Source of the DNA: a virus
IMG/VR virus record: IMGVR_UViG_3300024243_000005
Coordinates: 62,001 to 126,000 of that record
Length of the DNA stretch: 64,000 nt
Direction: 5' to 3' (one strand)
In this document: one piece after another, positions 53,139 through 55,120 of the stretch
Position numbering within the stretch: position 1 is the stretch's first letter
Layout: each line of letters opens with the position of its first letter
Made by a program: the position numbers and the translations under genes
The notes under the pieces: generated by a model
What the model was told of the DNA's origin: nothing
Database searches by the model: none
The model's input: only the letters and a program-made list of their open reading frames with translations

Positions 53139-53705
53139 ATGGCTGAGACCGACACCCCAACCCCTCCAAAGAAATCACCCATCACCATCTGGGCAACAGC
53201 AATTGCTACGATACTCACCGCTGCCACCGGACTCGTTCTAGGGCTTGTGGCTGTCTACAGTGGGGAAGATGGAGCTAAAAAAGCGTACACCATCACCAAG
53301 GATGTCATCGAACGACAACAGAAGGATATCGAGGACGCTTGGAAGGATATTGACAAAGCAAACGACCGCATCGACGTGCTCTACGCCATGCTGATCGGTA
53401 AGGTCCCTACATCGTCACCTCATCACCGTGTCAAAACAGAAGTGGAAGAAGAGCGTAGGTCTCCCGCCCATGTGCGTATGCGCATGACCACACGCCGCGT
53501 ACGCGTCCCCACAGCACACCGCCGCCCCACCCCCGTTGCTCGCATTGAGACTGCATCTGCAGCGGTCCCCGACACCCGAGACACCCTCAGCCCCGACGCA
53601 GGTGTTGGTCCTGACATCACCATGCCCAAGGCCCTCAAGCGCGTACACCGCGCTCCTCGTCGCCCCAAGAAGGCAATGCCCGCGTGGGGCCAAGTACAAC
53701 AGTAG
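53139..53705 (+). CDS. spanin-like membrane coiled-coil protein
   Basis: 188 residues. N-terminal membrane helix (about 14-40), then a periplasm-facing coiled coil (about 48-85) and a basic proline-rich tail. This is the general build of an inner-membrane spanin, and the gene sits near the end of the late region. A lipoprotein at 63218 could be a partner, but they are 10 kb apart, so this is only a suggestion. Confidence 0.5.
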   Translation: MAETDTPTPPKKSPITIWATAIATILTAATGLVLGLVAVYSGEDGAKKAYTITKDVIERQQKDIEDAWKDIDKANDRIDVLYAMLIGKVPTSSPHHRVKTEVEEERRSPAHVRMRMTTRRVRVPTAHRRPTPVARIETASAAVPDTRDTLSPDAGVGPDITMPKALKRVHRAPRRPKKAMPAWGQVQQ

Positions 53706-53710
53706 GATCT

Positions 53711-54029
53711 AAAAACTCCATGTCGTCCTGACCATGGAGGTAGCACCCACTTGAATCCTTGCAGAGGTATGAGTCCAGTCGTCGAAAGGCGCCTTTCGTA
53801 CCGTGAGGAATACTTCAATTTGCGTACAAAGCGAATGACTTCTTCACCTTTTACAGCGAGTAGTAAATTGAAGTAATCGGAGCGGTACGAAAGGATGCCG
53901 ATCGTTACTGGAACTCATGTTGGCCTTTGTCGGGAACTGGTGACTGTAAAAAAGGCCGTCGACGATGTATGGTGAAAATCTCGACGTTACGCCGAGGGGT
54001 GATCGTCACATCACACTACTGGGTACTAC
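53711..54029 (-). ncRNA. putative leftward structured noncoding RNA, about 320 nt
   Basis: A TGGTATAAG promoter (54035-54043) points left, and a terminator (CTCCATG/CATGGAG followed by TTTTT, 53711-53739) ends the unit. Between them are long-range helices: GAGTCCAGT with ACTGGAACTC, CCTTTCGTACCG with CGGTACGAAAGG (12 bp), and TACTTCAATTT with AAATTGAAGTA (11 bp), nested around a 43-nt loop. An alternative palindrome CGAAAGGCGCCTTTCG competes with the middle helix. No ORF is convincing. Function unknown. Confidence 0.6.
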
Positions 54030-54034
54030 ATTTT

Positions 54035-54043
54035 CTTATACCA
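54035..54043 (-). promoter_or_regulatory. leftward TGGTATAAG promoter of the ncRNA
   Basis: Minus strand reads TTGGTATAAGAA; -35 is not recognisable. It is divergent from a rightward TTGACA-like/TATAAA region (54049-54081) that leads into the PTH2-like gene. Confidence 0.5.
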
Positions 54044-54158
54044 ACCCCTTGACACTAATTCGCACGTGCTTACCCTATAAACACAGAGGAGAAAACGATG
54101 CGACCTTGCCCTTGCTAAACACCCCGAGCCCCACAACCCCCTGACTCACTACATCATC

Positions 54159-54446
54159 GTGCGCCGAGATATCCCCCGAGGCGTGCAAGCTGCCCAGATT
54201 ACCCACGCAGCAGGTGAGTCCAGCCCTGGCGACCTTGCCAGCGGCACCTACGCAGTCGTGCTAACCGTCCCTGACGAAGCCGAGCTGCGTGCCCTCAGCG
54301 CCCGTCTACACACCAAAGAGATTCGCCACAGGACCATCTGTGAGAACGCACCTGCGTACGCTGGCCAGGCCATGGCCATCGGCGCCGAGCCTGCGCCCCG
54401 CAGCGTACTGAGGAGGCACTTCAGCAGCTTACCGCTGCTTCGATAA
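54159..54446 (+). CDS. peptidyl-tRNA hydrolase (PTH2)-like, start in another frame
   Basis: 95 residues from the GTG at 54159. RRDIPRGVQAAQITHAAGES, then VVLTVPDEAELRALSARL and EPAPRSVLRRHFSSLPLLR are typical of phage PTH2-type peptidyl-tRNA hydrolase proteins. In-frame sequence extends upstream (ALAKHPEPHNPLTHYIIV) without an ATG. A strong ribosome site and ATG lie at 54085-54100 but in a frame that stops after six codons; a +1 shift joins the two frames. Either a +1 frameshift, an indel, or an unrecognised start. Next to two tRNA genes. Confidence 0.6.
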   Translation: MRRDIPRGVQAAQITHAAGESSPGDLASGTYAVVLTVPDEAELRALSARLHTKEIRHRTICENAPAYAGQAMAIGAEPAPRSVLRRHFSSLPLLR

Positions 54447-54456
54447 GTAGTACCCC

Positions 54457-54542
54457 GCGCGGGTAGCTCAGTGGTCAGAGCGCTCCGTCCTGTCCTCGGA
54501 CAGCAGACGGCGAGGTCGGAGGTTCAACTCCTCCCCCGCGCA
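54457..54542 (+). tRNA. tRNA-Asp-like gene with extended anticodon arm
   Basis: Acceptor GCGCGGG/CCCGCGC, D-arm GCTC/GAGC and T-arm GGAGG/CCTCC (loop TTCAACT) are standard. The variable loop AGGTC matches many tRNA-Asp. The anticodon arm is 30 nt instead of 17: CTCCGTC pairs with GACGGCG, and CTGTC pairs with GACAG around a CTCG loop, so the GTC anticodon would be inside a helix. Possibly an inactive tRNA, a decoy or a tRNA-like molecule. Confidence 0.6.
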
Positions 54543-54605
54543 CTCATTCCCCTCACGGGTGTAAGGCCCGATTACCTAGTTTGACTCTGGGGAGGGGAGC
54601 CACAT

Positions 54606-54682
54606 ACGCCTGTAGCTCCAAGCTGGCAGAGCGCCCGGACTAAGGTCCCGGGAGGTCGCAGGTTCGAACCCTGTCAGGCGTA
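54606..54682 (+). tRNA. tRNA with 9-nt anticodon loop (AAGG)
   Basis: Acceptor ACGCCTG/CAGGCGT, D-stem GCTC/GAGC, T-arm GCAGG/CCTGT, variable loop AGGTC. The anticodon stem CCCGG/CCGGG is perfect but closes a 9-nt loop ACUAAGGUC instead of 7 nt. U is followed by AAGG, which could pair with CCUU. If the first and last loop bases form an A-C mismatch pair, the loop is 7 nt and reads AAG (Leu codon CUU), but the short variable loop does not fit Leu. The amino acid is not assigned. Confidence 0.65.
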
Positions 54683-55120
54683 TCAGGAACCCAGGCTCTT
54701 GATGTAGAAGTAGGCCGCTGCAATCGCGGCGGGGATCATCCCTCCCAGCAAACCGTAGAGCCCCGACTTCGCCTGCAGCCGTGCCACATCCACCTTCACC
54801 GCGTGGACGCTATCCTTCAATGCAGAGAGGGCGACTGTGAGCGCATCTGCACTCTCTTTGGCCGCTGTGGCTACCCCGGCGTCCCCTTTGGCAAACGCAG
54901 CCTTCAGCTTCTCTACTGCCTTCCGTAGTTCTTCGGCAGCGGCCCGAATCTCAGCCACGTCCTCCTTATGCATGTCGAAGATTTCTTCCTGGACCTGCGC
55001 AAACCACTCCAGGTAGTGCTGCACGTGCCGTGCCCACTCCTCCCACACGGGGAGATCCTTCTCACTCTTGATGGGCGGCGGTGGTGGTAGAAGGAATTTA
55101 CCGCTGTTCCTACGCGCCAC
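54683..55120 (-). CDS. helical protein with C-terminal membrane segment
   Basis: About 145 residues, leftward. The start is uncertain; a GTG at 55120 overlaps the end of the cupin gene by 11 nt, an ATG at 55165 would overlap it more. A proline-rich N-terminus, a long amphipathic coiled coil (about 45-115) and a C-terminal hydrophobic helix (LLGGMIPAAIAAAYFYI). A tail-anchored or holin/antiholin-like protein. Confidence 0.6.
   Translation of the reverse strand: MARRNSGKFLLPPPPPIKSEKDLPVWEEWARHVQHYLEWFAQVQEEIFDMHKEDVAEIRAAAEELRKAVEKLKAAFAKGDAGVATAAKESADALTVALSALKDSVHAVKVDVARLQAKSGLYGLLGGMIPAAIAAAYFYIKSLGS

Follow-up and report, generated by a model that had tools for sequence, protein, structure and literature searches.

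A likely gene for a stand-alone, tightly folded RNA beside the tRNA and peptidyl-tRNA hydrolase genes of a large phage

Genomic setting of the locus

Our analysis concerns a window of 64,000 nucleotides (positions 62001-126000 of a 180-kb viral record), in which parts of RNA polymerase beta and beta-prime are encoded; among named phages, the capsid proteins nearest to its own, with 36-39% identity, are those of Salmonella phage Arash and three ~187-kb Vibrio phages. Structural genes run rightward as far as 53705, and between this operon and a rightward unit containing a PTH2-type peptidyl-tRNA hydrolase, tRNA-Thr and tRNA-Leu lies a stretch with a GC content of 47%, against 57-66% in most of the flanking coding sequence. 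The original prediction had placed a non-coding RNA (ncRNA) here, next to the tRNA/PTH2 locus; PTH2 and the two tRNAs do adjoin it, on the plus strand and divergent from the predicted ncRNA, for which we propose the following anatomy.

53139-53705, plus strand: final gene of the rightward structural operon, convergent with the ncRNA
53711-53739, minus strand: predicted intrinsic terminator CTCCATGgtcaggacgaCATGGAG-TTTTT, a 7-bp stem followed by UUUUU, from folding and sequence
53711-54029, minus strand: predicted ncRNA of ~319 nt, G54029 to U53711
53740-53751, minus strand: 3' arm of the closing helix, AGUGGGUGCUAC, ending right before the terminator stem and pairing with 54018-54029
53769-53918, minus strand: rod P4, ~55 bp in four stacked helices (pair probabilities 0.93-1.00)
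53783-53798, no strand assigned: 16-nt palindrome CGAAAGGCGCCTTTCG, a competing local hairpin
53922-53957, minus strand: side arm P3, GGCCUUU/AAAGGCC (pair probability 0.98)
53967-54016, minus strand: side arm P2 with inner hairpin CUCGGCG-UAA-CGUCGAG (pair probability moderate, 0.57, in the outer part and 0.97 in the inner stem)
54018-54029, minus strand: 5' arm of the closing helix, GUAGUACCCAGU, starting at the predicted start site (mean pair probability 0.97)
54031-54043, minus strand: predicted phage promoter motif TGGTATAAGAAAA, extended -10-like, from recurrence in the window and syntenic sites in relatives
54117-54446, plus strand: PTH2-type peptidyl-tRNA hydrolase (Pfam PF01981, 1.1e-8), divergent from the ncRNA

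The start of the PTH2 gene is itself anomalous. Within 54081-54159 no in-frame ATG, GTG or TTG precedes its homology region; a well-placed ATG at 54098, behind AGAGGAG, reads MRPCPC and then a stop, and the PTH2 frame is +1 relative to that ATG. This arrangement may reflect a +1 frameshift, the use of an unusual start codon or an assembly error of one base. As at window 54117-54684, PTH2-type genes lie directly 5' of tRNA genes in several other viral contigs (L002:5001-5561, L147:8729-9236).

A recurrent putative promoter motif and a predicted terminator flank the element

The promoter and terminator that had been claimed to flank the region can both be recognized on the minus strand, as TGGTATAAGAAAA (54043-54031), just upstream of the predicted start at G54029, and CTCCATGgtcaggacgaCATGGAG-TTTTT (53739-53711). 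A 17-base match in the relative G027 revealed the promoter motif, the plus-strand TTTTCTTATACCA being the reverse complement of TGGTATAAGAAAA. Its core 10-mer GGTATAAGAA has four copies in the window, all on the minus strand, compared with 0.03 expected from shuffles, and the same motif stands at matching sites in related phages: opposite the point where the RNA polymerase gene starts, and 5' of the homologue of p43194. An extended -10 box has the form TGnTATAAT, which the GGTATAAGAA motif resembles; its placement leads us to predict that it is a promoter. A generic sigma-70 promoter scan returned nothing suitable at the ncRNA locus, neither end signal included: it missed TGGTATAAGAAAA because its promoter rule demands a -35 box, and the built-in terminator scan missed CTCCATGgtcaggacgaCATGGAG-TTTTT because its rule permits a loop of at most 8.

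Several of the transcripts predicted from GGTATAAGAA start with a stem-loop such as ATGAGTG...CACTCAT (window 42967, L165:11527 and L267:5996, all on the minus strand), as if their 5' ends were protected by structure.

The RNA is predicted to fold tightly, with joined ends

The 319-nt minus-strand RNA has a predicted minimum free energy of -120.8 kcal/mol (z -7.8 against shuffles). Shuffled sequences fold far less well than either strand of 53711-54043 (z about -7), and in a sliding scan of 330-nt pieces of the plus strand the locus is the extreme of the window at z -6.4 (window mean -0.2, sd 1.15). The two ends of the RNA are joined through pairing of its first 12 nt with those at 53751-53740, immediately before the terminator; this closing helix contains 10 unbroken base pairs (GUAGUACCCA/UGGGUGCUAC), and the chance that exact 10-nt ends would pair is about 4e-5 in one register. 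The joined ends enclose two small arms and a single rod of 150 nt, which carries helices of 12 bp (CCUUUCGUACCG/CGGUACGAAAGG) and 11 bp (UACUUCAAUUU/AAAUUGAAGUA) and whose largest internal loop is 4 x 4. Mean pair probabilities are 0.93-1.00 in the closing helix, the main stem of P3 and the rod. The nested long-range helices of 9, 12 and 11 bp that had been described are present and nested, the 9-bp one being the closing helix, which we count as 10 bp. The 16-bp palindrome noted with them is also present, but not the pair of alternative folds that it was thought to allow: a penalty of 15.6 kcal/mol attaches to forcing the palindrome into its hairpin, and on these energetic grounds the two-state switch was rejected as unsupported.

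A strong fold alone is no proof of an RNA gene, because related phages hold other strongly folded non-coding stretches. Relatives G003 and G004 contain very strong runs of long hairpins in apparently non-coding DNA, with z down to -12 (L124:1300-1720, L150:12440-12720, L122:13520-13780 and L123:3400-4050); at one of these places AGCAGACGAG is repeated between hairpins. Such arrays lend some weight to a reading in which the element acts as DNA and yields no RNA, as a hairpin for recombination, replication or protein binding, or as an old inserted palindromic element. The rod is indeed an inverted repeat (53792-53821/53865-53894, with 30-nt arms at 83%) that folds about equally on both strands. 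However, the recurrent promoter motif and the terminator bracket the element exactly, the closing helix matches the predicted ends of the transcript and includes a U.G wobble specific to the minus strand, and inspection by eye showed no flanking target duplication; we regard this DNA-only reading as unlikely.

Assignment to the minus strand

No strand was named in the original prediction, and the features it described fit the minus strand only. In the closing helix the minus strand has a U.G pair and is unbroken, whereas the plus strand has a C.A mismatch, with energies of -16.2 and -11.4 kcal/mol, respectively. The rod does not pick a strand, because its fold on the plus strand is at least as stable: taken alone it reaches -67.9 kcal/mol on plus versus -64.7 on minus, and 53755-53938 reaches -84.4 on plus versus -69.7 on minus. 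Our assignment to the minus strand, which should be read as a prediction, draws on the promoter, the terminator and the fit of the ends, not on the rod. An initial plus-strand anatomy (model R1) was replaced by the minus-strand model R2 once the motif at 54031-54043 pointed left, and a search for antisense targets of the loop in the plus-strand reading gave no convincing site.

The same comparison bears on the possibility that the element is the plus-strand 3' untranslated end of the structural operon, serving in stability or processing. The preceding genes do run rightward, and the rod and its base hold more G.U pairs on the plus strand; against this, the scan found no plus-strand promoter or terminator nearby, the closing helix is weaker on plus, and the promoter motif has the opposite orientation. 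An operon end of this kind appears slightly less probable again than an element acting only as DNA.

Coding content and homologues

The region had been claimed to contain no open reading frame, and no stop-to-stop frame rises above noise in Pfam or PHROGs. A minus-strand frame of 163 codons is open across the rod and might be taken to encode a small protein, but it continues through the terminator and runs antisense to the neighbouring gene, it has no Pfam or PHROG match, and perfect repeats of 12 and 11 bp are unusual in coding sequence. A protein product is the least probable of the readings considered here.

Searches for relatives of the RNA itself gave no homologue. Rfam, up to E 10, returned no family match, with three chance plus-strand hits far below gathering scores; a DNA search of phages and plasmids gave no match; and exact-pattern scans of viral and genome collections, including pattern-matched loci, found no related RNA. 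BLAST and covariance models of either strand likewise found no homologue in ~40 related viral records, although these relatives were collected via the capsid protein and the absence is partly unseen because only some of them span the equivalent locus, G006 ending just short of it. One hit of model R2 in G042 (E 0.0015) was dismissed as false, since it lies inside a coding gene and has many broken pairs. In the collections searched, the predicted RNA is an orphan with no detectable relative.

Comparison with tmRNA

The equivalent region in relatives carries tRNA clusters and tmRNAs. Of 25 related or reference records, 6 contain a tmRNA; those of relatives score 95-158 bits in Rfam, and several group members have the gene (L161:14208-14561 in G006, L124:4134-4472 and L115:13104-13484). 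The relative with the closest gene order, G006, has a minus-strand tmRNA of 95.5 bits behind TGGTATAAGTGA; the motif, there GGTATAAG, lies upstream of the tmRNA on the same strand and within two genes of a shared syntenic marker, and the tmRNA adjoins the homologue of gene 52556. The slots differ, the ncRNA lying two genes further on in the present genome. Directly downstream of the G006 tmRNA, this viral contig also carries a gene for ribosomal protein S12 (L161:13609-14007, Pfam 4.7e-37).

These parallels of neighbourhood, strand and promoter class, together with similar lengths and the frequency of tmRNAs in the group, invite the idea that the ncRNA is a highly derived tmRNA. Yet the Rfam tmRNA model does not match either strand up to E 10, nor does ARAGORN, and Rfam does detect the relatives' tmRNAs, including that of G006, which ARAGORN missed. 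Inspection of the sequence showed that the bases beside the closing stem cannot form the T stem of a T arm, and that neither a 3' CCA nor a tag ending in AA is present. A 10/11-base similarity of the ncRNA to a tmRNA tag region was judged to be chance. By these tests the ncRNA is not a tmRNA, and we consider a highly derived one very improbable. Only a little less remote is a scenario in which the tmRNA that relatives carry in this neighbourhood has given way to an unrelated RNA filling the same role, either in dealing with stalled ribosomes or in taking over translation jointly with the adjacent PTH2 and tRNAs. What the G006 parallel does suggest is that the ncRNA may belong to the phage's translation-related units.

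A probable stand-alone RNA gene and its possible role

From the sequence evidence, we propose that the locus is probably a stand-alone minus-strand gene whose product would be a stable, tightly folded RNA ~319 nt long. This agrees with the structured, free-standing ncRNA of about 320 nt that had been claimed, which is backed by the promoter motif, the terminator and the fold; the RNA remains a predicted one, whose transcription we infer from these signals, and the existence of the gene is likely. The ncRNA would be transcribed together with the phage's other minus-strand, non-structural units, with transcription ending at its own terminator. The folded RNA could then act in trans, with a protein or ribosome partner or as a decoy, within an island that would be given over to tRNAs and translation. 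We interpret it as neither an mRNA leader nor a switch; we infer that action in trans is most likely, and in the same way that it may be linked to translation.

To our knowledge, phage RNAs without a protein product have been poorly surveyed, and most known ones were discovered via conservation. The present likely RNA gene is defined by its promoter, terminator and joined ends, though no relative was found, and a related phage bears a tmRNA nearby behind the same promoter class. If expressed, the ncRNA would extend the repertoire of RNAs that large phages employ around translation by an unfamiliar member.

Among known systems, GOLLD and ROOL are stand-alone structured phage or prophage RNAs of unknown function, often near tRNA islands (PMC12286853). 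The ncRNA is likewise predicted to be free-standing, structured, phage-encoded and near tRNAs; however, ROOL measures ~659 nt and GOLLD RNAs are in many cases longer than 800 nt, whereas the ncRNA is rod-like, has no relatives in the collections searched, is well below 600 nt at 319 nt, and does not match the Rfam models of GOLLD or ROOL. This kind of RNA, free-standing in phages near tRNAs, is known; the present one belongs to no known family. With tmRNA (RF00023) the ncRNA also shares the joining of its ends by a helix, but it has no tRNA-like domain and no tag reading frame. A long rod of stacked helices is reminiscent of 6S RNA, and this phage encodes its own RNA polymerase subunits; unlike 6S RNA, the rod lacks a large central open bubble, and there is no Rfam match. 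Adenovirus VA RNA is a rod-like viral decoy, a structured ncRNA with dsRNA character (PMC6599070). The likeness to that structured, dsRNA-like viral RNA is one of analogy only, as virus, polymerase and host are unrelated and no sequence or family link exists.

Other repeated structures in related phages

Covarying hairpin arrays in G018, G014 and G012 were considered and set aside as a different element, absent from this genome. Tandem non-coding units of ~185-200 nt occur at L144:1588-2210, L147:7474-7864, L133:14850-15243 and L282:8284-8651, and in every unit the arms of a hairpin GYCNNC-RCTAC-GNNGRC covary from unit to unit and from phage to phage. One such array lies between terminase-like and exonuclease-like genes, and another is ~0.9 kb upstream of PTH2.
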